In this document: piece by piece, positions 1 to 19,208 of the stretch
How the letters are laid out: every line of letters begins with the position of its first letter
Position numbering within the stretch: position 1 is the first letter of the stretch
Assembly: GCF_001700515.1 (NCBI RefSeq)
Contig: NZ_MAUD01000291.1
Location: forward strand, 1-34,828
Origin: Streptomyces lushanensis
Lineage (GTDB): Bacteria; Actinomycetota; Actinomycetes; Streptomycetales; Streptomycetaceae
Direction: 5' to 3'
DNA length: 34,828 nt
Program-made: the position numbers and the translations under genes
The notes under the pieces: generated by a model
The model's database searches: none
Seen by the model: the letters and a program-made list of their open reading frames with translations, nothing else
Told to the model about the DNA's origin: nothing

Positions 1-2563
1 TCACCGGACCGGAGGAGGACGGGGCGGGGATGGGCCGGGGCGTGGTGCCGGTGAGGCTCCGGGTGAGCACCCCGAAGGAGACGCCGGTGGCGCCGCCGAC
101 GGCCTGGGTGGAGGCACGTATGTCCGAGCCGCGCTGGCCTTCCTTCGCGACGTTGAAGCCGCCGTCGGTGTTCTGCTGGGAGGCGAGGAACCCGAGGGCC
201 TTGGCGATCCGCGCGCTGTACCTGGGCGCGTCCAGGGAGAGCCCCTGGACCGCGAGCGCCGCGGAGTTCACCGAGTTGCCGGCCGCGCCGGGGAAGCCGC
301 CGTCCGGCAACTGCTCGCCCGCGATCCAGGCCAGAGCCTTGTCCACCCCGGTCCGGGCCTTCTCGTCCGCCACCAGGTCCAGGGTCATCGCGGCCATGGC
401 GGTGGAGTCGACGTCGGAGTCGCCCGTCGCCGGGATCAGGCTGGGCCAGGCGCCGGAGGGATGCTGGAGGCTCTCCAGGAACGCGACGGGCTCCCGGGCC
501 GCGTCCTTCTCCCCGGCCCTCAACTGGGCCAGCACGCCCAGGGACTGGGCGAAGACGGACGGGGCATAGGTGTAGGCGCCCTTGGCCGGGCAGCTCCGGT
601 CCGGTGCCCGGGACGGTGTCCGGCACACCGCGGTGCCGAGAGCGGCGATCAGGTCCCGGCCGCCGAAGTCGCGGGGGTCCCGGCCGACGGTCTCGGCGAG
701 GAGGGCGGTCTTGCCGATCGACCCGCCCGCGGCGTACTTGGTGCCGACGCTCGTCCAGTCGTGCACCGTACGGCCCTCGGGGTCCTCGCCGCCCTTGTCG
801 AGGAAGTCGACGACGGCGCGCAGGGCGTTGTTGTCGTGGCCGGTCGCGGCCAGGGCGAAGGCGCCGTCGATGGTGAGACCGAAGTCCGCCCGGCCGCCGC
901 CGGCCGTGTAGTACCGCCCCTGCTCGAGGTTCGCCGGGCTGGTCAGGTACGCGACGCCCTTCTTCAGGTCGGGGCCCGCGCCGGGCGCGGTGGGGGAAGG
1001 GGATGCCGGCGGGGACGTCGGCGGCTCGCTCGGTCCGGGCCGCTCGGTGGTCAGGTCGACCAGGCTGGTGTCCGCGCCGGCGAGTACGGCGGGGGCGGTC
1101 GGATAGAGGGCCGCGTCCGAGGCCCCTTCCTCGAATCCGAAGCCCCCGTCCGGGAGTTGCTGTGTGGAGAGCCAGGAGACGGCGGCGTCCGCCTGGGCCG
1201 TGTCGCCGAGGACGCGCAGCGCCTGGGCCGCGTAGGCCGTGGCGGTCACGCCGGCGGTGGCGGAGCCCGTGTAGCCGGGGAAACCGCCGTCCTGGCGCTG
1301 GGTCTTCTTCAGATACGCGCGGGCCTTGGCGACGGCGTCGGCCTGGCCGCCCGCCTTGTTCAGGACGAGAGCGACAAGACCGGTGGTGGCCGGATCGCCG
1401 TCGCAGTACTCGCCGGGACGGATCAGGATGCTGGTGATTCCGCCGTCCCGGCACTGGAGCTGGGTCAGCCGCTCCACGGTCCCGGCCGGGGGCCGGACAC
1501 CGCCGCGCACCACAGCCAGTACGGCCAGTGCCTGCCCGTCGGCGTACGAGGCGCCGACGAAGTCGCCCTTGGCCGTGCAGCCCGGTGTCGGACCGCCGGA
1601 CTCGGGGCCGGCCGCGCAGACGTTCTTCACCAGATCGCCGAGCAGGTCATGGCCTCCGAAGGCACGCGGGTCGCCTTCGGTGATCTCGGCGAGCAGGGCC
1701 AGGCGGGCGGCGGCGGGCGCGTCCGGCGGGGCGTCCGCGCCGCCGGGGTAGGCGTAGACGTCGGTATGGGCCGTGAGGAACGCCGTGATCTTGTCGAGGG
1801 TCGCGCTCCTGCCGCCGGACGCGGCGAGGGCGTAGGCGGCCTCGGTCGTCAGCGGATGGTTCGGGCTGTCGGCGCCCTCGTCGACGATCCGCTCGCCGTC
1901 CGTGAGCCGGCCCGTCAGCCACCGGGCGGCGGCGGGGACATCCACCTCTCCCGCGGGAAGTGTCGGGGGGCCGCTGGGCTCGGGCGTGCCGCCGCCGGCG
2001 GCACGCACCTGGTCGGGAGTGAAGGTGGGCCTGCCGGTGGTGCCGCCGACGTCCGTGCCGCCGAACACCCACGCGTCGACATCGCCCGCCCCGGGCCTGC
2101 GGTCCATGGCCCCGAGCGGGCTGTAGGACCACTCGTCCTGTCCGGGCGAGGCGATCCAGTACGACCAGTAGGCGGTGGCCTGGGGGGTCAGTACGCAGTC
2201 CTCCTTGTCCGGAGTCGGGTACTCCGTACCGGAGTTGAAGGATCCGGAACCGATGCGGCAGATGAAGGCGGGACCGTCGTGCTCGGTGCCCGCCGTGGTG
2301 AACCCGCCCTCGTGGAGGAGTTCGTAGCCGGTGGTGGGGGTGGTGTCGCAGCCCCGCTGGACCGTGCCGCCGAAGGGCCCGAAGTCGACGGCGACGATCG
2401 CGCCCCTGGTGGCCGTGCAGTCCCCGACGGGGTCCGCCGACGCGGGGGTTGTTCCCGTGACGAACGCCACGGCGGCGCCGAGGACGAGAAGGGCCGCCGA
2501 TATCAGCGACAGCAGTCTTCGGTGTCCCGTACGCCGGTCTGCTTGCTGTGCGGTCCCCACCAC
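1..2563 (-). CDS. Secreted DUF4430-like / terpenoid-cyclase-fold repeat protein, B12-riboswitch controlled (3' end missing)
   Basis: The frame is open from GTG at 2563 (or the adjacent GTG at 2560, both behind a GAGGGG ribosome site) to the window edge, 854 codons without a stop. A Sec signal is visible: an RRTGHRRLLSL basic end, a hydrophobic stretch near residues 20-38, and cleavage about ASA-DP at 44. Residues about 50-160 form a beta domain of the DUF4430/transcobalamin-C type (AFICRIG, YWSYWIASPG, WSYSPLGA, GDVDAWVFG). Two barrel-like repeat blocks follow (about 186-490 and 520-830), with DGGF/DGGI repeat motifs (QDGGFPGY, PDGGFGFE, PDGGFPGA, TDGGFNVA), separated by a Pro/Ser linker. A second Pro/Ser stretch at the edge suggests a linker to a wall or membrane anchor. 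The cobalamin riboswitch upstream suggests a surface or extracellular role in B12 capture, which is inference. The fold resembles squalene cyclases but I see no cyclase DxDD motif. Confidence 0.8.
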   Translation of the reverse strand, partial: MVGTAQQADRRTGHRRLLSLISAALLVLGAAVAFVTGTTPASADPVGDCTATRGAIVAVDFGPFGGTVQRGCDTTPTTGYELLHEGGFTTAGTEHDGPAFICRIGSGSFNSGTEYPTPDKEDCVLTPQATAYWSYWIASPGQDEWSYSPLGAMDRRPGAGDVDAWVFGGTDVGGTTGRPTFTPDQVRAAGGGTPEPSGPPTLPAGEVDVPAAARWLTGRLTDGERIVDEGADSPNHPLTTEAAYALAASGGRSATLDKITAFLTAHTDVYAYPGGADAPPDAPAAARLALLAEITEGDPRAFGGHDLLGDLVKNVCAAGPESGGPTPGCTAKGDFVGASYADGQALAVLAVVRGGVRPPAGTVERLTQLQCRDGGITSILIRPGEYCDGDPATTGLVALVLNKAGGQADAVAKARAYLKKTQRQDGGFPGYTGSATAGVTATAYAAQALRVLGDTAQADAAVSWLSTQQLPDGGFGFEEGASDAALYPTAPAVLAGADTSLVDLTTERPGPSEPPTSPPASPSPTAPGAGPDLKKGVAYLTSPANLEQGRYYTAGGGRADFGLTIDGAFALAATGHDNNALRAVVDFLDKGGEDPEGRTVHDWTSVGTKYAAGGSIGKTALLAETVGRDPRDFGGRDLIAALGTAVCRTPSRAPDRSCPAKGAYTYAPSVFAQSLGVLAQLRAGEKDAAREPVAFLESLQHPSGAWPSLIPATGDSDVDSTAMAAMTLDLVADEKARTGVDKALAWIAGEQLPDGGFPGAAGNSVNSAALAVQGLSLDAPRYSARIAKALGFLASQQNTDGGFNVAKEGQRGSDIRASTQAVGGATGVSFGVLTRSLTGTTPRPIPAPSSSGPV

Positions 2564-2599
2564 GGCCCCTCGTGTCGTCCGGGCGGCTCGCGCGTGGCG

Positions 2600-2668
2600 A
2601 AAAGACCCCGCCGCACGGCGTGTTCCGTGGGGAGGCCGATCGAACCACGCCGTAGTCCGCGACGGCGT
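2600..2668 (-). promoter_or_regulatory. Expression platform: terminator with competing antiterminator hairpins
   Basis: On the minus strand, downstream of the riboswitch, three mutually exclusive pairings can be drawn. 2662-2668 pairs with 2647-2653 (7 bp, 9-nt loop). 2646-2653 pairs with 2615-2622 (8 bp). A terminator stem pairs 2614-2618 with 2625-2629, plus outer C/G pairs (2606-2609 with 2630-2632), and is followed by the transcript run TCTTTT (2605-2600). A U-run is uncommon in Streptomyces terminators. This fits B12-dependent premature termination before the GTG start at 2563. The pairings are seen in the sequence; the mechanism is inferred. Confidence 0.6.
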
Positions 2669-2673
2669 CTCTC

Positions 2674-2784
2674 GCTGATCCACTGCTCCAGGCATTCCGG
2701 CTCGCCCGGGCTGCGCCGGGCCTACGGTTGCGGGTCAGCGCCGGATTCCGACCGGCTTCCCCTGGGGCTGTTTGCTTATCAGCC
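2674..2784 (-). promoter_or_regulatory. Cobalamin riboswitch (short form) for the gene at 1-2563
   Basis: Read on the minus strand it contains the B12-box landmarks in order: GGGGAAGCCGGTCGGAATCC, then GCTGACCCGCAACCGT, then GAGCCGGAATGCCTGG. The ends pair as P1: GCTGAT (2783-2778) with ATCAGC (2679-2674). At about 110 nt it belongs to the short (class II-like) cobalamin aptamers. It lies 111 nt upstream of the GTG start and feeds into the terminator/antiterminator at 2600-2668. Confidence 0.9.
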
Positions 2785-2902
2785 GGATTGGAACACGCCT
2801 GTGAAGACAGCGTCAAGGAGGCATGAACCGCGTCAGCCCCTCCTGCGGCCGGCGGCGGCCGTGGCGTCTGGCGGACCGGTGATCCCTCGGGTAGCGTCCG
2901 GG

Positions 2903-2999
2903 GCTGCCATGTGGGGGAACCCGGTGCGAATCCGGGGCTGACGCGCAGCGGTATGGGACGGCAGGGGGCCGTTCCGAGCCCGAATGCCCATACGGCAGC
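2903..2999 (+). promoter_or_regulatory. Cobalamin riboswitch (short form) for the gene at 3110
   Basis: The plus strand shows GGGGGAACCCGGTGCGAATC, GGCTGACGCGCAGCGGTATG and CGAGCCCGAATGCCCATAC in the order expected of a cobalamin aptamer. P1 closes between GCTGCC (2903-2908) and GGCAGC (2994-2999). Downstream, TGCTCC (3053-3058) can pair with GGAGCA (3100-3105), which covers the Shine-Dalgarno AGGAG of the gene at 3110. That suggests translational control here rather than termination. Confidence 0.88.
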
Positions 3000-3109
3000 G
3001 AGTCCCAGGAAGCCGTACCACGCGTTCGGACGGCGGCCCCGCCCGTCTCCGGTGCTCCGGCCGCGAGGACGGCGTGCCCGGCCGGCGTCCCTCATCCCAG
3101 GAGCAGGCC

Positions 3110-4522
3110 ATGTCCCGTTCTCTCACCTCCCGCCGCATCGCTCTCGCCGTCCCCGCGGCGCTGGGGGCTCTCGCGCTGACGGTGCTGCCCGCCGCCGCGA
3201 CCTCCACTCCCGCGCAGATCGCCACCTCGAAGACCAACGGTGTCGCCTACCTCAAGTCGCTCCAGGCCGCCGACGGTTCTTACGCGGGCGCCGGTCTGTC
3301 CAACGAGTGGGCGTTCAGCGCCCTCGCCGCCGCCGGCACGGCCGCCGTGGACGTCACCCCGGGCGCAGACGTCACCAAGAACGCCCGTACCGTCTACCGC
3401 AATCTCCTGTCCACGGCCGGCTGGCCGTCCGCCTCACCCGTGGTCACCGACTACGAACGCGGCACGCTCAACGCCTACGCGGCCGGGATCGACCCCGCGC
3501 GCGTGTCCGCCTCCCGCAATCTCATCGCGAACATCTACGGCTACTGGCAGACGGCGGAGGCCGGTTACTTCGGGCCGTCGGCCAACTACAACGGCACGGT
3601 CTTCGCCGCGCTCGCCCTCGGCGGGGCCAGAACGCAGTCGGGCGCCCAGCGGGTGCCCCAGGCCCTCCTGGACGCTATGGTCACCCGGATACGGGCCAAC
3701 CAGCACAACGACGGCGGGTGGAACTACAGCAAGGCCGAGGGCAACCCGGCCCAGCTGGCCGCCGTGAGCGACATCGACATGACCGGCGCGTCCATGGCCG
3801 CCCTCTGCGCCTCCGGAGTGCCCAACACCGACTCGGACATCACCCAGGCCAAGGCATTCCTCAAGAGCAAACTCGTCAACAACTCCGGCGCCTTCAACGC
3901 CGTGTTCGGTGCCAACACCGATTCCAACGGCTGGGCCGTCTCCGGGCTCAACGCCTGCGGCATCAACCCGCAGACCGGCGACTTCCTCACTCCCCTGGGC
4001 AGGACCCCGGTGAACTTCCTGATCGCCCAGCAGTTCAACCCCGGCGGCGGCTTCCGCTACCTCCCCGGTGACACCTCCCCCTCCGCCTACGCGTCCATCG
4101 ACGGACTGCGCGCGGTGGCGGGCGGCGGCTTCACCTCCGCCCCTCCCGTCCCCGTCACCGCCGGCGCCCCGCAGTGGGCCGCCCAGAGCACCTTCACCGC
4201 CGGTACGGCGACCACGCTGGGCGTCACGGTCGACGACGGCGCGGGCGGACTCAAGGTCTGCTCCGTGGCCTTCACCCCCACGGGCACCACGGCCACCCTC
4301 GGCGACATCCTGACGGCCGCCACCACCGCCGCCACCCCGGCCGGCTGCGTGACAAGCGTCACCCCGTCGTCCGGGACGGGCACCATCACCGCGATCAACG
4401 GCAAGGCCAACAGCGGAACTTCGACCTGGAAGGTCGGCGTCGACGGCTCCGCCTTCGCGGGCGCGGCCCGCGACAAGGTGATCAACACGGGCGACACGAT
4501 CGCCCTGCGCTGGGGCGCCTGA
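3110..4522 (+). CDS. Secreted transcobalamin/intrinsic-factor-like protein (alpha-barrel + DUF4430)
   Basis: This is a 470-residue secreted protein. The ATG at 3110 is chosen because AGGAG lies 8 nt upstream and the N-terminus is a signal peptide (SRRIALAVPAALGALALTVL, cleavage near AAA-TS at about 31). Residues about 35-345 are alpha-hairpin repeats of the prenyltransferase/squalene-oxidase-like barrel (YLKSLQAADGSY, NQHNDGGWNYS, FNPGGGFRYL). Residues about 375-470 form a DUF4430/transcobalamin-C beta domain (TLGVTVDDGAGG, ATLGDILTAA, GTITAINGKA, STWKVGVDG, GDTIALRWG). Barrel followed by beta domain is the layout of intrinsic factor and transcobalamin, which hold B12 between the two. The cobalamin riboswitch just upstream supports B12 binding or capture. 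The domains and riboswitch are seen; ligand binding is inferred. No anchor is visible, so it is probably released or cell-associated through a partner. Confidence 0.85.
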   Translation: MSRSLTSRRIALAVPAALGALALTVLPAAATSTPAQIATSKTNGVAYLKSLQAADGSYAGAGLSNEWAFSALAAAGTAAVDVTPGADVTKNARTVYRNLLSTAGWPSASPVVTDYERGTLNAYAAGIDPARVSASRNLIANIYGYWQTAEAGYFGPSANYNGTVFAALALGGARTQSGAQRVPQALLDAMVTRIRANQHNDGGWNYSKAEGNPAQLAAVSDIDMTGASMAALCASGVPNTDSDITQAKAFLKSKLVNNSGAFNAVFGANTDSNGWAVSGLNACGINPQTGDFLTPLGRTPVNFLIAQQFNPGGGFRYLPGDTSPSAYASIDGLRAVAGGGFTSAPPVPVTAGAPQWAAQSTFTAGTATTLGVTVDDGAGGLKVCSVAFTPTGTTATLGDILTAATTAATPAGCVTSVTPSSGTGTITAINGKANSGTSTWKVGVDGSAFAGAARDKVINTGDTIALRWGA

Positions 4523-4532
4523 CCCTCCCGGG

Positions 4533-4567
4533 TGCGGGTCCGCGCCGTACGACGGCACGGACCCGCA
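4533..4567. terminator. Bidirectional hairpin terminator between convergent genes
   Basis: An interrupted inverted repeat: arms TGCGGGTCCG (4533-4542) and CGGACCCGCA (4558-4567), one mismatch, then GCCGT/ACGGC with a 3-nt loop. It lies 10 nt after the stop at 4522 and before the convergent stop at 4619, so it probably serves both genes. Confidence 0.75.
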
Positions 4568-4618
4568 TCCGCGGCTTCTCAGTGGAGCGCGGACCCGGCG
4601 CTCCTCCCCCGGCAGTCC

Positions 4619-5107
4619 CTAGAAGGCGGTCCAGGTGAACGCCACCCGGTCACCGGCGTTCAGCTTGAACTGGCAGCCGCCCACCGGTGTGGGCGTGCCG
4701 TTCACGGAGATGTTCCAGTAGGCCACTCCCCCACCGCTGACCTGCTTGATGGTGTCGACGGAGAAGTCGTCGAAGGACGCGTACCAGGTGCCGTCCCAGG
4801 TGAAGCCCCGCTCGCGGGCGGCGTCGTCGAGCGCGGCGGTCGGGGTGGGCACCGCGGTCGCGTTCGCGCCACCGTTGGTCCCGTCGCAGGTGTGCGTACC
4901 GCCGGTGGCGGTGGTGACGTCGTGTCCCTTCGTCCTGATCTTCCCCTTGAACAGCAGCCCGTCGGGGCCCTGGACCGTGAGAGAGACCTTGACGGGCGCG
5001 CTCGTCCCGGGGACGGGCTGGGCCTGGGCGACAGCGGGCGCGCCGACGAGGGCGAGACCGAGGGCTGCCGTGGTGAGCACGGTGCGAAGGGCAAAGGGCT
5101 GGCGCAT
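4619..5107 (-). CDS. Secreted single-domain DUF4430 protein
   Basis: A 162-residue secreted protein with ATG at 5107 behind AGGAAGG. The signal peptide runs to about residue 30 (TVLTTAALGLALVGAPAVAQAQ). The rest is one transcobalamin-C/DUF4430-type beta domain: VKVSLTVQGPDGLLFKG, then TTATGGTHTCDGTNGG, GFTWDGTWYASFDDF, GVAYWNISVNGT and LNAGDRVAFTW. Three cysteines remain in the mature part as printed here (THTCDG, GGCQF and none elsewhere that is obvious), so one disulfide is possible. It faces the barrel-DUF4430 gene at 3110 tail to tail and resembles that protein's C-terminal domain without the barrel. A role alongside it in B12 binding is inferred from context only; I found no convincing riboswitch upstream of this gene. 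Confidence 0.8.
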   Translation of the reverse strand: MRQPFALRTVLTTAALGLALVGAPAVAQAQPVPGTSAPVKVSLTVQGPDGLLFKGKIRTKGHDVTTATGGTHTCDGTNGGANATAVPTPTAALDDAARERGFTWDGTWYASFDDFSVDTIKQVSGGGVAYWNISVNGTPTPVGGCQFKLNAGDRVAFTWTAF

Positions 5108-10847: not shown

Positions 10848-11783
10848 TCAGCCGAGTTGCCGCGCCGGGCCCGTCGACAGAAACGTCGTGGTCCCCCGGG
10901 CGTCCCTCAAGGCGCCGTGGCCCTTCTCCCTGTGCTCCAGGACGGTGCTGCCGGCCGGATCCACGATGAGGACGTGGTGCATGGACGGGCCCTGCCACTC
11001 CACGGCGGTGCCCCGCCGTCCCTCGCTGTCCTTCACCGGTCCGAGAAGCCGTACGCCGTCCATGCCCGCGAGGATCTCGAAGAGGGCCGCGCGCAGGTGC
11101 GGTCCCGACGGTGCGGTGGTGAGGAGGCTCACGATGCCGTTGTAGAGGGCGCGGTCGCCGTCGGTGGAACCGCTGAGGAGCCTGGTCCTCAAGGCCTGCG
11201 GGTCGGTGGGCAGTTCGGCGAGTTCGTCCCAGGTGACCCGCTCGCGCCCGACCGACCAGGTCGTCTGTCCGGCCGACCGGAAGGTGCAGAAATCGCCGTG
11301 GCAGACGCTCGACTCCCTGCCTCCGGGGTTGAGGAGAGTGACGGAGGTGCGGCTGTACCAGTTCGTCTGCTCCTGGCCCGGCCGCGTGCTCATGGTGTAG
11401 CGCGCGCGCACCTTCCAGTACCGGGCGTGGGAGGCGGGCTTCTGCGCCGCCGTGACGGCGACGTCCCGCAGGAAGGTCGCCGCGTTCGCACCGGCGGCCG
11501 GCGGCGCGCCGTCCGTCCCGGTCACCGGCAGGACGAAGACCCCCGCGGCCACCGCGGCCACGGCGACCGCCGACACCGCGAACCGGCGCCGGCGCCTGCC
11601 CCGCCCACCGGTCGTATCGGCCCTGTCCCGGGCCACGGCTTCCCGTACGACCCTCCGGGCGGCGTCGACAGCCGCCCCCTGCGCCGGATCCACCCGCCCG
11701 GCCGCGCACAGCGCCCCGGCACCGGCGAAGTCCAGGAAATCCGGCTCCAGGTCGCGTGTGTCATCGTCAGTGATCGTGGTCAT
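10848..11783 (-). CDS. CU044_5270-like membrane protein, putative partner of the ECF sigma factor
   Basis: A 311-residue protein. The N-terminal cytoplasmic part (1-65) ends in a very basic run ([10 protein letters not shown]), followed by one membrane helix at about 68-88 ([19 protein letters not shown]) and an extracytoplasmic domain. The outer domain resembles the CU044_5270 family ([59 protein letters not shown]). The ATG at 11783 overlaps the sigma gene stop by 4 nt. Actinobacterial genes of this kind routinely follow an ECF sigma gene and may act as a membrane-bound regulator, but no classical zinc-binding anti-sigma HxxxCxxC motif is seen. Confidence 0.8.
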
Positions 11784-12361
11784 GCGGAGTCTCCTGTCCG
11801 GGGAAGTACGGTGGCCGGTTCAAGCGCCTGGCGCAGCCGTGCGCGGGCGCGGTGCAGTCGGGACCGCGCGGTGCCCGGCGGGATGCCGATCACGGCCGCG
11901 GCCTCGGTCGGGGTGAGCTGCTCCCAGGCGATGAGCAGCAGCAATTCCCGCTCCACGTGCGGAAGCCGGTCCAAGGTACGGCGTATCGAGGGCGCGACCG
12001 CGGCGGCGTCCAGCCGTTCGTCCACCGCCTGCCACGGGTCGCTGACGGCGTGGTCGTCGCCACCGGCCGCCCCTGGCCGTTCCGGCGCACCGCGCCGCCA
12101 GTGCGCGGCCAGTACGTTCCTGGCCACTCCGAAGAGCCAGGTGCGAGCCGTGCCACGGGTGGCGTCGAAGGTGGTGCGGCTGGTGTACGCCTGCAGCCAG
12201 ACCTCCGCCAGCAGGTCGTCCGCGACGGCGGGCGCCCGGCGGGCCAGATAGCCGTGCAGGACGTGGGCATGGCGCTCGACCAGCGGCTCGAAGGCCACGG
12301 GGTCACGCGCCGAGCGCACCAGCAGATCGTCGTCGTCCGGTTCCACAAGGTCCCCTCCCAC
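11780..12361 (-). CDS. ECF-type RNA polymerase sigma factor
   Basis: A 193-residue group IV sigma factor. Region 2 is at about 18-85 ([51 protein letters not shown]). Region 4 is at about 125-180 ([40 protein letters not shown]). The ATG at 12361 gives [12 protein letters not shown]; the in-frame GTG at 12346 is an alternative. The gene is coupled by ATGA overlap to the membrane protein at 10848-11783, which probably controls it. There is no C-terminal extension. The regulon is unknown; the promoter must lie in the 220 nt between this gene and the metE terminator. Confidence 0.92.
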
Positions 12362-12624: not shown

Positions 12625-14943
12625 TCAGGAGGCGGGCAGTTCCTCGCGTACGGTGCGGGCCGCCGTGACCAGGTTCTCCAGGGAGGCTCGGGTCTCGGGC
12701 CAGCCGCGGGTCTTCAGCCCGCAGTCGGGGTTGACCCACAGGCGCTCGGCCGGAATGGCCTCCAGTCCCTTGCGGAGCAGGGCCGCCGCCTCGTCCGTGC
12801 CGGGCACGCGCGGGGAGTGGATGTCGTAGACACCGGGGCCGGCCTCGCGCGGGTAGCCGTGCTCGGCGAGTTCGCGCGCGACCTGCATGTGGGAGCGGGC
12901 GGCCTCCAGGCTGATGACGTCGGCGTCGAGGTCGTCGATGGCCTGGACGATGTCGCCGAACTCGGCGTAGCACATATGGGTGTGGATCTGGGTGTCCGGG
13001 CGTACGCCACTGGTGGTGAGGCGGAACGACTCGGTGGCCCAGTCCAGATAGGCGCCGTGGTCCGCGGCGCGCAGGGGAAGGGTCTCACGCAGGGCGGGCT
13101 CGTCGACCTGGATGACGGACGTGCCCGCCGCCTCGAGGTCGTCGACCTCGTCGCGCAGCGCGACGGCGACCTGGCGGGCGGTGTCACCGAGCGGCTGGTC
13201 GTCGCGGACGAAGGACCAGGCCAGCATGGTGACGGGCCCGGTGAGCATGCCCTTGACGGGGCGCTCGGTGAGCGACTGGGCGTAGGAGGTCCAGCGCACC
13301 GTCATCGGCTCGGGACGGGAGATGTCACCGGCGAGGACGGGCGGGCGGACGTAGCGGGTTCCGTAGGACTGGACCCAGCCGTGCTGGGTGGCCAGACAGC
13401 CGGTGAGCTGTTCGGCGAAGTACTGCACCATGTCGTTGCGTTCGGGCTCGCCGTGCACCAGGACATCGATGCCCGTCTTCTCCTGGAAGGAGATGACCTC
13501 GCCGATCTCGGCCCTGATGCGCTCCTCGTATCCGGCGGTGTCGATACGTCCGGTACGCAGGTCGGCGCGGGCCGTACGCAGCTCGTCGGTCTGCGGGAAC
13601 GAGCCGATGGTGGTCGTCGGCAGCAGCGGCAGTCCGAGGTGGGCGCGCTGGGCGGTCGCCCGCTCGGGGTAGGGGTGGGAGCGGCGGCCGTCGGCGTCGG
13701 TGACGGCGGCGGTCCTGGCCCGTACGGCCGGGTCGCGGGTGATCGGGGAGTTCGCCCGGGAGGCGAGGTCGGCGCGGTTGGCGGCGATCTCCGCGGCGAT
13801 GGTGTCGGTGCCCTGCGCCAGTCCCCTGGCCAGAGTGACGATCTCGGTGGTCTTCTGCTGGGCGAAGGCGAGCCAGCGGAGGATCTGCGGGTCGATGTCC
13901 CGTTCGGCGGCCGTGTCGATCGGGACGTGCAGCAGGGAGCACGAGGCGGCCACGTCGACCCGGCCGGCCAGGCCGAGGAGCGTCCCGAGGACGGACAGCG
14001 ACTTCTCGTAGTCGTTGATCCAGATGTTGCGGCCGTTGACCACACCGGCGACGAGGCGCTTGCCGGGCAGTCCGCCCACCGAGGCCAGGGCGTCGAGGTT
14101 GGCCGCCGCGGCGCCGGTGAAGTCGAGTGCCAGGCCCTCGATCGGTGCCTTCGCCAGGATGGGCAGGGCTTCACCGAGGCGGTCGAAGTACGAGGCCGCG
14201 AGCAGCTTGGGGCGGTCGGTGAGGCCACCGAGGTCGCGGTAGGCGCGGGCGGCGGCGTTCAGCTCGGCCGGTGTGCGGTCCTGGACGAGGGCGGGCTCGT
14301 CGAGCTGGGCCCACTCCGCGCCGGCGGCGCGCAGGTCGGCGAGCACCTCGGCGTAGACCGGCAGCAGCCGGTCCAGCAGGGTCAGCGGTTCGAAGTCGGC
14401 GGCCACCCCGGGCGCGGGCTTGGCGAGCAGGAGATAGGTGACGGGGCCGACGAGCACCGGCCGGGCGGTGAGACCGAGCGCGAGGGCTTCCTTCAGCTCG
14501 GCGACCTGCTTGGAGGAGTCGGCGGTGAAGACGGTGTCGGGGCCGAGCTCGGGGACGAGGTAGTGGTAGTTGGTGTCGAACCACTTGGTCATCTCCAGCG
14601 GCGCCACGTCCTGGGTGCCGCGGGCCATCGCGAAGTAGCCGTCGAGCGCGTCGGCCGTGACGGCGTCCCGGTGCCGCTCGGGCACGGCACCGACCATGAC
14701 GCTGGTGTCCAGGACATGGTCGTAGTACGAGAAATCGCCGGTCGGCACCTCGTGGACACCGGCGTCCGCCAGCCGGCGCCAGTTGGACCGGCGCAGGCCG
14801 GCCGCCGTTTCGCGGAGGGCGTCGGCGCCGACGCGGCCCTTCCAGTACCCCTCGACGGCCTTCTTCAGTTCCCGGTTGCGGCCTTGGCGGGGGTAGCCGT
14901 ACACGGTGGCCTGTGCCGCCGCGGCTGCGGACTTCGCTGTCAC
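12625..14943 (-). CDS. metE: 5-methyltetrahydropteroyltriglutamate-homocysteine S-methyltransferase (B12-independent methionine synthase)
   Basis: A 772-residue enzyme that transfers the methyl group of methyltetrahydrofolate-polyglutamate to homocysteine in the last step of methionine synthesis, without B12. Its length matches full MetE, with two TIM-barrel halves. The N-terminal half begins [20 protein letters not shown]. The C-terminal catalytic half has [16 protein letters not shown], the zinc-ligand segment [10 protein letters not shown] (about residue 655), ISLEAARS and a third ligand in [11 protein letters not shown] (about 740). The GTG at 14943 is chosen over a longer ATG start because AAGGAG lies just upstream and the extra N-terminal residues do not resemble MetE. 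The cobalamin riboswitch at 15121-15295 should repress it when B12 lets MetH work. Confidence 0.97.
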
Positions 14944-15120
14944 GGAAATCTCCTTCGCGAGATGTCTCCTTGAATCCCGGGGACGGGACGCGAGCGCGAA
15001 GAGGTGACGAACCGGACGGCCCAGTTCCACGCCATGGCGCGCCTGTCCGTCCGGTATGTACGCCGACCCGCCCACGAGGTCACCGGGATGGCCGCACGCG
15101 ATCGTTCGCGTACGGGCAAC

Positions 15121-15295
15121 GGGCAGGTCTTCGGACTCGTGGGCACATCTGCCGGAACAGATTCCTACTGGCCGTCGCTTCCCAGACCCGGCCGGGCCCA
15201 GTGCTCATGACGGCGGTCGTTCCCACTCACCGCTGCGGGGCAGTCCCGGATTCCCACCGGGTTCCCTCTTACGACACCTCTGCCTGGCGGGCAGG
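15121..15295 (-). promoter_or_regulatory. Cobalamin riboswitch (long form) upstream of metE
   Basis: On the minus strand the order is GGCAGAGGT, AGAGGGAACCCGGTGGGAAT, GGGACTGCCCCGCAGCGGTG, a GC-rich variable stem region, then CACGAGTCCGAAGACCTGCC. Ends GGCAGaGGT and ACCTGCC pair as P1. About 170 nt, the large (class I) cobalamin aptamer form. Its 3' end is 178 nt before the metE GTG. Confidence 0.95.
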
Positions 15296-15524
15296 GCGAA
15301 CCAGCTGCGTCAGCCAGGCTAGAACGCGGGCCACCTCCGGGTCACCTCTGTTCACATTCCGGAATGTGACATGAGACACGTGACTGATCACGGCAGCGAC
15401 GCATGGCGCGGCGAGGAGTGGTTCGGGTTCGGGCACCGCCCGGAGCCCCGTCCGAACGGCCGGAGGCCCCGGCGGGGCCGCGACCGCGCAGCTCGACGGA
15501 GCGCGTGTGCCGGACACATCGCTG

Positions 15525-17709: not shown

Positions 17710-18363
17710 CTAACGCCATGAGGACATCTCCCTCGTCAGGGTGCGCCGCGCCCGGAAGAGCCTGCCGCGTACGGTCTGTTCGCTCTCGCCCAGGACCTGT
17801 GCGACCTCCTCGTACGACAGTCCGTGCAGCTCCCGCAGGATCCAGCAGACGCGCTGGCCGGGCCGGAGGTCATGGAGCGCTTGAGCCAACGCCGCGGTGG
17901 CAGCGGCGCTTTCGGCGGCACGGGCGGGCTCGCCACCGGCGTCACGAGCCGTCGGTTCGGGAACGGCGGTCAAGGACACCGTGGGCGCCTGCCCGCGCAG
18001 GACGTTGAGGCACCGGTTGGTGACAATGCGGTACATCCACGTGCGGAACGCGGCGTCCCCGCGGAACTCCGGGAGGCGCCGCCACGCGCTGATGAAGGCA
18101 TCCTGCACGGCCTCCTCGGCGTCGGAGGGGTTTCCCAGCAGGTGGTGGGCAAGGGCCAGCAGCGGCGCGCTGTGGCGGTGGACCAGGACGGCGAACGCGT
18201 CGTCGTCGCCTTCGGCGGCACGGGCGGCCAACAACCCGCTGTCCAGGAATCCGAGGTCGTCGCCGGGATCACCGATCCGCTCGGCCGCACGCTGGTCAGA
18301 CCTGGCGGCAGGGCCCGGGGCCGCACGCCGGGGTGATGAAAGTCTTCCCTGCTTCGCATCCAC
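17710..18363 (-). CDS. ECF-type RNA polymerase sigma factor
   Basis: A 217-residue group IV sigma factor. The GTG at 18363 (VDAKQGRLSS) has GGAAG upstream; a longer ATG start at 18465 would cross the divergent gene's leader. Region 2 is FAVLVHRHSAPLLALAHHLL, DAEEAVQDAFISAWRRLPEF and TWMYRIVTNRCLNVLR. Region 4 is LHDLRPGQRVCWILRELHG, SYEEVAQVLGESEQTVRGRL. An Ala-rich linker joins them. It is divergent from the small membrane protein at 18458, as is often seen where ECF sigma factors sit beside Asp23/DUF2273 genes. No anti-sigma gene is adjacent. The methyltransferase operon starts 163 nt downstream and may be read through or be a target. Confidence 0.92.
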   Translation of the reverse strand: MDAKQGRLSSPRRAAPGPAARSDQRAAERIGDPGDDLGFLDSGLLAARAAEGDDDAFAVLVHRHSAPLLALAHHLLGNPSDAEEAVQDAFISAWRRLPEFRGDAAFRTWMYRIVTNRCLNVLRGQAPTVSLTAVPEPTARDAGGEPARAAESAAATAALAQALHDLRPGQRVCWILRELHGLSYEEVAQVLGESEQTVRGRLFRARRTLTREMSSWR

Positions 18364-18457
18364 TGTCCGCTTCCAGAACAAAAAATGTGACTCTTTCCGA
18401 ATTTCCGTGTCCAACCTTGCGACGGGCAGAAACACGACAACAGGAAAGGTGCCTGCG
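18364..18457. promoter_or_regulatory. Divergent promoter region between ECF sigma and small membrane protein
   Basis: A 94-nt region holding promoters for both neighbours. It is AT-rich relative to the surroundings (CAAAAAATGTGAC near 18379). No confident -35/-10 pair could be assigned. Confidence 0.5.
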
Positions 18458-18745
18458 ATGAACACGACTGTGGCGGGGCTCGTGACCGGCCTGGCACTGG
18501 GTTTCGCCGGCTATTTCGGCGGCTTCGGGGCTTTCCTCGTGGTGGCGGTCCTGGGCCTGGTGGGCCTGATCGCCGGCTACCTGGCACGAGGCGATGTGCG
18601 TGTCTCCGACTACATACCCACCCGAAACGGCGAAGGACGCCAGGCGACGTTCCGCAACGGCGGGGGACGCCGGGAAACACTCGGACATCGTGGGAGCACT
18701 TACGGGACCGCCCCCCACAGCGAGTACAGGACGCGCGTGCGGTGA
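18458..18745 (+). CDS. Small membrane protein, DUF2273-like
   Basis: A 95-residue protein with ATG at 18458 behind AGGAAAGG. Two short glycine-rich membrane segments (VAGLVTGLALGFAGYFGGFG and FLVVAVLGLVGLIAGYLA) are followed by RGDVRVSDYI and a hydrophilic Arg/Gly-rich tail. The pattern matches the DUF2273-type small membrane proteins usually found with Asp23/Gls24 envelope-stress proteins. Here no Asp23 gene is present, only the divergent ECF sigma factor. The function is probably envelope-stress related, by context only. Confidence 0.7.
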   Translation: MNTTVAGLVTGLALGFAGYFGGFGAFLVVAVLGLVGLIAGYLARGDVRVSDYIPTRNGEGRQATFRNGGGRRETLGHRGSTYGTAPHSEYRTRVR

Positions 18746-18772
18746 GCAACCGACCACGTCACGCTCACACCT

Positions 18773-18825
18773 GGGCTTCCCGAAGAATCAGTCCCTCGCA
18801 CCCGGGCTTCCCGAAGAATCAGTCC
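18773..18825. repeat. 31-bp-period tandem duplication at the 3' end of the gene at 18819
   Basis: The 22-nt unit beginning GGGCTTCCCGAAGAATCAGT occurs at 18773-18794 and 18804-18825. The second copy contains the stop codon of the minus-strand gene at 18819-19208, so the duplication lies across and beyond that stop. Confidence 0.85.
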
Positions 18826-19208
18826 TGGGAGTCCTTGTGATCCCGCGGCTCCTGGGGGTCCACCCCGGTGTAGGCGGAAGCGTCCTTGCTGCCGCTGGGG
18901 CGCCGGGTGCGTCCCTTGGGGCCGGTGTCGTGCATGCCTTCGCTCTTGGACTTTCCGGCTTGCTCCTCGCCGCGCCGGGTACGGCTTTCGACCGGCGTGC
19001 CCGCCGTTGACCGCTTCTTGTCCTCGGGCGAGGGCTCGCGGCTCGCGTCGGGTTGCGGGGCGTACCGGTCCGGGTGGAAGGAGCGGTGCGCGCTGGGGTT
19101 GTCCTGCTGTGAGCTCTCGTCCACGTCCGGCGACCATCCGTGCTGATCACGTCCTCGGAACCGGCTCGGGCCTTCATCCTGCGGAGCGTGACCGCGCTTC
19201 TTCGACAT
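18819..19208 (-). CDS. Conserved hydrophilic actinobacterial protein
   Basis: A 129-residue protein with ATG at 19208 (MSKKRGHAPQDEG); an upstream in-frame ATG at 19268 adds only unconvincing residues. It is highly charged and polar throughout (SRFRGRDQHGW, DESSQQDNPSAHRS, PEDKKRSTAGT, PQEPRDHKDSQD), with no hydrophobic core, signal or membrane segment, and is probably intrinsically disordered. Similar hydrophilic proteins are widespread in Streptomyces without known function. Upstream on the minus strand a TATAAT (about 19275-19270) stands out in GC-rich DNA as a possible -10. Its 3' end is duplicated in the 31-bp repeat. Confidence 0.75.
   Translation of the reverse strand: MSKKRGHAPQDEGPSRFRGRDQHGWSPDVDESSQQDNPSAHRSFHPDRYAPQPDASREPSPEDKKRSTAGTPVESRTRRGEEQAGKSKSEGMHDTGPKGRTRRPSGSKDASAYTGVDPQEPRDHKDSQD

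Follow-up and report, generated by a model that had tools for sequence, protein, structure and literature searches.

The DNA analysed here is one whole contig of Streptomyces lushanensis (NZ_MAUD01000291.1, contig C214, 34,828 nt; the window in what follows). At its left end lie three genes for secreted proteins and two cobalamin riboswitches, which probably belong to a system for the capture and import of vitamin B12. P1 (3110..4522, plus strand, 470 residues) has a predicted alpha/alpha toroid at residues ~34-339 and a predicted beta domain at ~360-470. P2 (1..2563, minus strand) begins with a module resembling the SCO2322 family and continues with two predicted alpha/alpha toroids; its gene is truncated by the contig end. 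P3 (4619..5107, minus strand, 162 residues) is a DUF4430 beta domain. The three open reading frames stand as they were first placed, the left one open past position 1, and chance reading frames are ruled out by the 55 aligned homologues of P1, at 58-84% identity. Signal peptides of the secreted proteins were assigned by eye only.

Because the contig ends inside P2, what lies to the left was read in relatives. A species genome collection was scanned with two P1 peptide patterns, giving 69 named loci (70 with the window), all of them close relatives since they were picked by those patterns. Most are from Streptomyces; Actinacidiphila, Kitasatospora, Micromonospora, Dactylosporangium and one metagenome-assembled genome are also represented. 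Locus layout was taken from tblastn with the gene set of one relative, L020. The P1 query came from a gapped alignment row, and its matches still span residues 1-470. The simple gene caller overlooks genes, and the counts given below do not rest on it.

Cobalamin riboswitches

P1 and P2 are divergent, and each has its own cobalamin riboswitch, as the original prediction held. The P1 riboswitch (2907..2997, plus strand) matches Rfam RF00174 at 2914-2989 with 37.4 bits (cut-off 31.5) and scores 87.9 bits with a covariance model built for this work. The P2 riboswitch (2667..2769, minus strand) matches RF00174 at 2667-2760 with 31.5 bits, equal to the cut-off, and the purpose-built model at 2682-2769 with 89.6 bits; the Rfam match is absent from the whole-window listing and was found in closer scans. 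Training of the purpose-built model, R1, used 13 riboswitches; these include both riboswitches of the window, the rest coming from 7 of the 69 named loci, and for all these sources its scores are partly circular.

Among the 70 loci this model finds P1 preceded by a riboswitch in 68. Upstream of P2 a script found one in 65 of 68; in L083, L086 and L097, where the best tblastn piece had shifted the P2 start, it was located by eye, on the correct strand and between the genes. Rfam at its own cut-off, applied to 17 loci, detected the P1 riboswitch in 12, the P2 riboswitch in 12, both in 7, and at least one in all 17.

P3 occurs in 27 of the 70 loci, window included. It lies beside P1 in 20, on the importer side in 6, and in one further locus (L082). 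An own riboswitch precedes P3 in 17 of the 20 loci where it is beside P1, the exceptions being the window, L047 and the L048 fragment; in the window no riboswitch was found by Rfam upstream of P3 (5080-5420). The six P3 genes on the importer side, downstream of the substrate-binding gene described below, have no riboswitch of their own. In L082 (9061-11407) riboswitch, P3 and P1 stand in one row on the same strand, and in L051 (9215-9687, minus strand) two tandem Rfam cobalamin riboswitches, of 46.7 and 64.8 bits, lie upstream of P3.

The importer operon

The layout of the relatives is constant. P1 is divergent from P2, and P2 is followed by a separate SCO2322-like protein, the transmembrane (T) subunit CbiQ, a fused CbiO-CbiO ATPase (A) and the S component of an energy-coupling factor (ECF) transporter. 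All six genes (P1, P2, SCO2322-like, T, A and S) were found by tblastn in 55 of the 70 loci, window included. Of the remaining 15 loci, 12 break off within the operon or close to it, and the other three (L077, L080 and L082) are genuine exceptions; SCO2322-like matches in the truncated loci may be cross-hits to the first module of P2. The SCO2322-like protein, a fourth extracellular component beside P1, P2 and P3, carries a C-terminal membrane helix, recognized by eye. An importer had been expected to the left of the window, of either the ECF or the BtuFCD type. In the relatives it is of the ECF type and in one operon with P2; no BtuFCD-type importer is present in this operon, and the rest of the genome was not searched for one. 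An unrelated left neighbourhood, named beforehand as the finding that would speak against a B12 system, is contradicted by the constant operon across the relatives.

The T and A subunits were recognized with family models in L020. CbiQ scores 43.6 bits (cut-off 25), ABC_tran matches two stretches of the A subunit, and the TIGR cbiO model gives 231.4 bits (cut-off 211.8), while the ECF_ATPase models reach ~289 bits and stay under their own cut-offs. For the S component, the only families matched at E up to 0.01 are ECF_trnsprt and, weakly, a folate S model; CbiM is not among them. In the genome of the window itself, contig C110 opens with the S gene, which shares 89% identity with its L020 counterpart, and with part of the A subunit (531 columns, compared with a 551-residue A). 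It is inferred to adjoin the window contig across a gap of a few kilobases.

One genome, G012, has a split locus (L018/L106). P1 with the two riboswitches and the beginning of P2 is at 8.12 Mb, and T, A, S and a SCO2322-like remnant are at 5.49 Mb, as if a rearrangement had broken the operon.

P1, a predicted toroid-beta protein

The barrel-beta architecture first proposed for P1 is reproduced by AlphaFold2. With a 56-sequence alignment the best of five models has a predicted local distance difference test score (pLDDT) of 89.1 and a predicted template modelling score of 0.87; mean pLDDT across the five models runs from 89.1 down to 66.4. Helices extend to about residue 339 and are followed by the beta domain. 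P1 thus has toroid first and beta domain after in one secreted chain, the transcobalamin-type order, and the Foldseek alignments cover both domains. When the model was compared with the Protein Data Bank (PDB) by Foldseek, ranks 1-14 were all transcobalamin, haptocorrin or intrinsic factor (E 1.2e-8 to 4.1e-7). These alignments are 465-490 columns long, hence including both domains, and cyclases and prenyltransferases rank lower by E-value. P1, like P3, has no wall-anchor tail.

The likeness to the animal carriers is one of predicted structure. Among the window proteins a Pfam scan at E up to 1 found no eukaryotic cobalamin-binding protein family, and no sequence link to the animal carriers was obtained with the P1 single sequence, the P1 profile, the P2 profile (E up to 1) or the profile of the DUF4430 proteins from distant genomes described below. 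The P1 barrel matches no Pfam family above its cut-off. The beta domain of P1 scores 18.5 bits with DUF4430, under the Pfam cut-off of 23.8.

P2, a double-toroid protein with a sorting signal in relatives

Two barrels had been read in the left protein, and both Pfam and AlphaFold2 agree. The barrels match SQHop_cyclase_C (5.4e-15) and Prenyltrans (2.2e-14), each in two stretches, and both are well predicted by AlphaFold2; the first module is poorly predicted (pLDDT blocks of ~29-67). In a fold search with the whole P2 model cyclases lead, and transcobalamin first appears at rank 47. P2 scores 144.6 bits with NF053823, the SCO2321 family, compared with a cut-off of 300, and so falls outside that family.

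The relatives of P2 end in a signal for attachment to the wall. A C-terminal sorting motif with a hydrophobic stretch and a basic tail is present in 61 of 62 full-length relatives, L017 being the exception. The motif is LASTG in 43, LAATG in 11, LAGTG, LAFTG and MPVTG in 2 each, and MASTG in 1. The 62 are what remains of 73 P2 loci after removal of 7 without a start motif (L045, L050, L076, L079, L094, L095 and L097), 3 that are short (L018, L060 and L063) and the truncated window. Six of the 7 set aside for want of a start motif show an LAXTG-type tail, and the seventh, L094, is truncated. LAXTG is given as the class E sortase signal in S. coelicolor (PMC5148588). The signal of P2 is known from the relatives, the tail of the window protein lying beyond the contig end.

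The cyclase matches of the barrels raise the question of enzymatic activity. Type II terpene cyclases carry DXDD as their acid motif. In an HMMER alignment the first barrel of P2 reads D-P-A-T-T in the window, opposite the D-V-(D303, mutated to E or A)-D-T of drimenyl diphosphate synthase, and positions three and four of that stretch are never D in any listed residue class (46 rows). The first barrel therefore argues against a cyclase. Similar stretches, judged so without alignment to the cyclase motif, read D-I/V-D-M-T in P1 (56/56) and D/E-V/I-D-S-T in the second barrel of P2 (46/46), neither of which is DXDD.

P3 and the beta modules

P3 belongs to DUF4430 (26.7 bits, Pfam cut-off 23.8). 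The original prediction built all three proteins from the same two modules, barrel and beta, with beta only in P3. This stands for P1 and P3, the beta domain of P1 being joined to P3 by hhalign (E 3e-5, probability 73), and is not confirmed for the first module of P2, which has low AlphaFold2 confidence and, at E up to 1, no DUF4430 match in Pfam. That module is joined instead to the SCO2322-like protein (E 8e-83). By hhalign it reaches E 0.39 with the P1 beta domain and E 0.22 with P3, and is thus not shown to be a beta-grasp or DUF4430 domain.

Comparisons between the two groups gave E-values of 0.04-0.39 for three of four pairs. The fourth, P3 with the SCO2322-like set, gave E 4e-4 over 19 residues and 0.0016 in a further comparison, values that rest on signal peptides. 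Pfam, several hhalign modes, merged alignments and the distant DUF4430 set were all tried in order to place the P2 module in DUF4430, and nothing convincing emerged. For example, the merged set against P3 in one global alignment gave 136 columns with E 0.0056 and a probability of 2.8, and the distant DUF4430 set against the P2 module gave 96 columns with E 0.089 and a probability of 0.6. The position of the SCO2322-like gene leaves it a possibility that the first module of P2 is the same beta module.

Simpler systems in the genus

P1 was found in 6 of 61 genomes of the genus; two further matches are weak (E 2e-4 and 7e-4). A close S component (at least 86% identity) accompanies P1 in 6/6 genomes and is found in 1/55 genomes without it (G056), a difference with a Fisher p of 1.3e-7. 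S relatives of any kind are present in 57 of the 61 genomes, mostly at 44-51% identity and a few at 52-59%.

Four of the loci with these more distant S components were read (L101-L104). L101 begins with a riboswitch, followed by a SCO2321 toroid membrane protein (558.6 bits), a SCO2322 protein (222 bits) and the T, A and S genes; L102 and L103 have the same row by tblastn and motif. No P1 or P3 was found in these three. In L104 the order is riboswitch, SCO2322-like protein, T, A, S, a toroid protein ending in LARTG, and P3. None of the four riboswitches reaches the Rfam cut-off, that of L101, the one inspected more closely, falling just under it at 30.0 bits, and all four are found by the purpose-built model (27.8-72.6 bits). 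A paralogous system of this SCO2321 type is widespread and is probably present in most of the genus. The window genome has only the close S, whereas six other genomes with a close S also carry a second one; its absence could be an assembly gap, the genome being in 732 contigs. A lone SCO2321-family toroid membrane protein is encoded on another contig of the window genome (C403; L031, 3817-5484), without adjacent ECF genes.

A split layout in distant genomes

Apart from the window, 12 matches were obtained in a sample of 396 genomes from the phylum, and every one of them lies in a genome of 1.7-3.2 Mb; at most four candidates were scored per listed genome, so that blanks carry little weight. 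Five distant loci were fetched (L120-L124), and in each a riboswitch of 88.8-115.7 bits heads an operon. First in the row is a large protein, next a DUF4430 protein (E 4e-12 to 1e-17), and then come T, A, an S-position gene and a toroid protein. Similarity to S was found in 3 of 5, and toroid families were confirmed in the three loci scanned for them. The large protein is of a beta-propeller family in L122, the one scanned. The toroid proteins have a C-terminal hydrophobic stretch, seen by eye, and P1 is 29-33% identical to four of them.

The distant layout is that of the two halves of transcobalamin as separate proteins around an ECF transporter. Nothing else argues as strongly for toroid and DUF4430 domains acting together with corrinoid import. 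Because the SCO2322 module takes the place of the DUF4430 protein in the row, it may be a diverged counterpart of DUF4430; a kinship of the two was not shown by sequence when hhalign was run against the distant set.

Probable corrinoid capture and its alternatives

These observations are best accounted for if the locus is a system for the capture and import of B12 (corrinoid) that feeds an ECF importer, a reading that is probable though not secure. We infer the ligand, the exact corrinoid, its binding by each protein and the order of hand-over. At low corrinoid the two divergent riboswitches would switch on both transcription units. P1 would be a free secreted carrier, with the corrinoid held between toroid and beta domain as in animal transcobalamin, and P3 a small secreted beta-domain helper. 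P2 with its two toroids would be fixed to the cell wall by sortase, and a C-terminal helix would keep the SCO2322-like protein in the membrane; together the two may hold the ligand and relay it through the wall to the S component. The ECF transporter (S, CbiQ and fused CbiO-CbiO) would then import the corrinoid with ATP.

A bolder version, tentative and with rather more chance of being wrong than right, is a three-tier B12 relay across the thick Gram-positive wall. Free P1 (with P3), a sortase-anchored double-clamp P2, a membrane-anchored SCO2322-like lid and the ECF importer would be its stations, under the control of up to three riboswitches. The relay would descend from a split transcobalamin, in which two different membrane proteins supplied the toroid and the beta domain around an ECF transporter. 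This older layout would persist in distant genomes within the phylum and probably, as the SCO2321 type, in most of the genus, and P1 would have arisen from it by fusion, in parallel to the animal carriers. The haem relay of staphylococci follows an analogous logic.

Several results weigh against corrinoid capture and import as read here, among them the failure of the first P2 module to join the beta domains. No ECF genes were found in L077 and L082, although the sequence there is long enough to include them, and in L080 pieces of T, A and S occur without P2 and without a riboswitch. The S component scores 28.7 bits with ECF_trnsprt, under the Pfam cut-off of 30.7, and has no match among solved chains (E up to 1). 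The T subunit was not found in the genome of the window, presumably because of an assembly gap; its absence agrees with a few kilobases missing between C110 and the window contig. That genome also has CobM, and the host may therefore make B12 itself, in which case the system may be one of salvage by a B12 producer.

The fold of P1 adds further difficulties. Foldseek superposes P1 on the transcobalamin-type carriers with a root-mean-square deviation (rmsd) of 19-20 Å and a template modelling (TM) score of 0.35-0.39 over both domains; cyclases and prenyltransferases, though lower in rank, fit the P1 barrel alone better (TM up to 0.45, rmsd ~6-9 Å). Domain placement or repeat register in P1 therefore appears to differ from that of transcobalamin, and a closed clamp is not claimed. 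The structural comparison that had been suggested as a check puts animal B12 carriers at the top of the list and does not reproduce the closed barrel/beta clamp. By VIA-align the P1 barrel is nearer to squalene-hopene cyclase (Z 24.1, rmsd 2.6, 263 residues aligned) than to intrinsic factor (Z 18.9, rmsd 3.2, 242 aligned), the latter comparison (2pmv_B) matching residues 30..350 of the P1 model only. The P1 profile searched against the PDB at E up to 10 retrieves no transcobalamin-type carrier.

Among the alternatives, the one that survives best, and still an unlikely one, is that the operon imports cobalt or a building block of B12 (cobinamide only, or a lower-ligand base), with the riboswitch merely reporting B12 status. 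Cobalamin riboswitches also govern cobalt and precursor uptake, and the CbiQ/CbiO type of the T and A subunits, the lack of a solved relative of S at E up to 1 and the presence of CobM would all suit such a role. However, CbiM is not among the families matched by the S component at E up to 0.01 (ECF_trnsprt and, weakly, a folate S model), the first Foldseek matches of P1 are cobalamin carriers, and several large extracellular toroid/beta proteins are hard to account for if the cargo is a metal ion or a small base.

Less likely again is that P1 and P3 are B12 sponges or piracy carriers, directed against competitors or used for storage, and independent of import; this would be compatible with corrinoid import by P2 and the ECF transporter. 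The two proteins are without an anchor, P1 and in many loci P3 have their own riboswitch, and L082 combines the riboswitch-P3-P1 row with a stretch free of P2 and ECF genes. Two observations tie P1 to import instead: its co-occurrence with the close S (6/6 vs 1/55) and its divergent placement beside the importer operon in most loci. That the toroid proteins are secreted enzymes, of the terpene-cyclase or polysaccharide-processing type and merely regulated by B12, would agree with the squalene-hopene cyclase families matched by the P2 barrels and with the VIA-align order for P1, but is highly improbable in view of D-P-A-T-T in the first P2 barrel, the want of DXDD at the similar stretches of P1 and the second P2 barrel, and the link to an ECF importer and riboswitches.

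Neighbouring genes

Further along the window, metE, the gene for B12-independent methionine synthase (12625-15075, minus strand), lies downstream of a full-length cobalamin riboswitch (84.9 bits; region 12625-15320), the third in the contig. In L019 a gene for CobF, precorrin-6A synthase (11532-12314), and a Peripla_BP_2 gene (18250-19164) are near P1. The Rfam sodF small RNA was found near the locus in L060 (10865-10953, 93.2 bits) and L088 (13151-13237, 59.3 bits), where it is seemingly unrelated.

Known systems and significance

The animal carriers transcobalamin, intrinsic factor and haptocorrin, which take Foldseek ranks 1-14, resemble P1 in being secreted and in having the toroid before the beta domain. 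They differ in that sequence searches do not match them, the clamp is not reproduced, and the two toroids of P2 come after its other module. A closer precedent is that of Burroughs et al. 2007 (PMC1796856), who proposed that bacterial proteins with SLBB domains (DUF4430, of the transcobalamin C-terminal type) and toroids are B12 scavengers. As far as the part of that paper at hand goes, the likenesses include a secreted SLBB domain plus toroid, the toroid on either side, and operons with CbiO/CbiQ. The same part places its clade in low-GC Gram-positives, planctomycetes and euryarchaea without mention of Streptomyces, and in it no riboswitches, double-toroid LAXTG protein, SCO2322-like module or divergent free carrier were found. 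The principle had thus been predicted in 2007 for other bacteria; the present version and its layered layout look new.

The SCO2321/SCO2322 systems of the genus (NF053823, NF040672) share with the P1-P2 loci a row of riboswitch, toroid membrane protein, SCO2322 protein, T, A and S. In contrast, their toroid and SCO2322 module are separate, the toroid is single and the S component is mostly 44-51% identical. ECF-CbrT of Lactobacillus delbrueckii is likewise an ECF-type cobalamin importer; in the part of PMC5997447 available it works with an ECF module and no toroid/beta carrier is mentioned, whereas the S component here matches no solved chain. According to PMC2667541, BtuFCD was the one B12 importer known from prokaryotes when that paper appeared. 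By title and abstract, nothing on the present system was found besides Burroughs et al., nor any paper giving the SCO2321 and SCO2322 families a role or naming SCO2322-SCO2326; these are weak negatives, subscription literature being mostly outside the search. The single paper found with SCO2321 is unrelated, judging by its title, and DUF4430 occurs in six, of which two also contain the word cobalamin.

B12 is a large and rare molecule, and its extracellular gathering by Gram-positive bacteria is poorly known. The locus offers a testable set of proteins for this process: a soluble, intrinsic-factor-like protein of 470 residues, a wall-anchored partner and an importer. The system would point to roles of the SCO2321 and SCO2322 families, and it bears on the sharing and theft of B12 in soil and on the origin of the animal B12 carriers.

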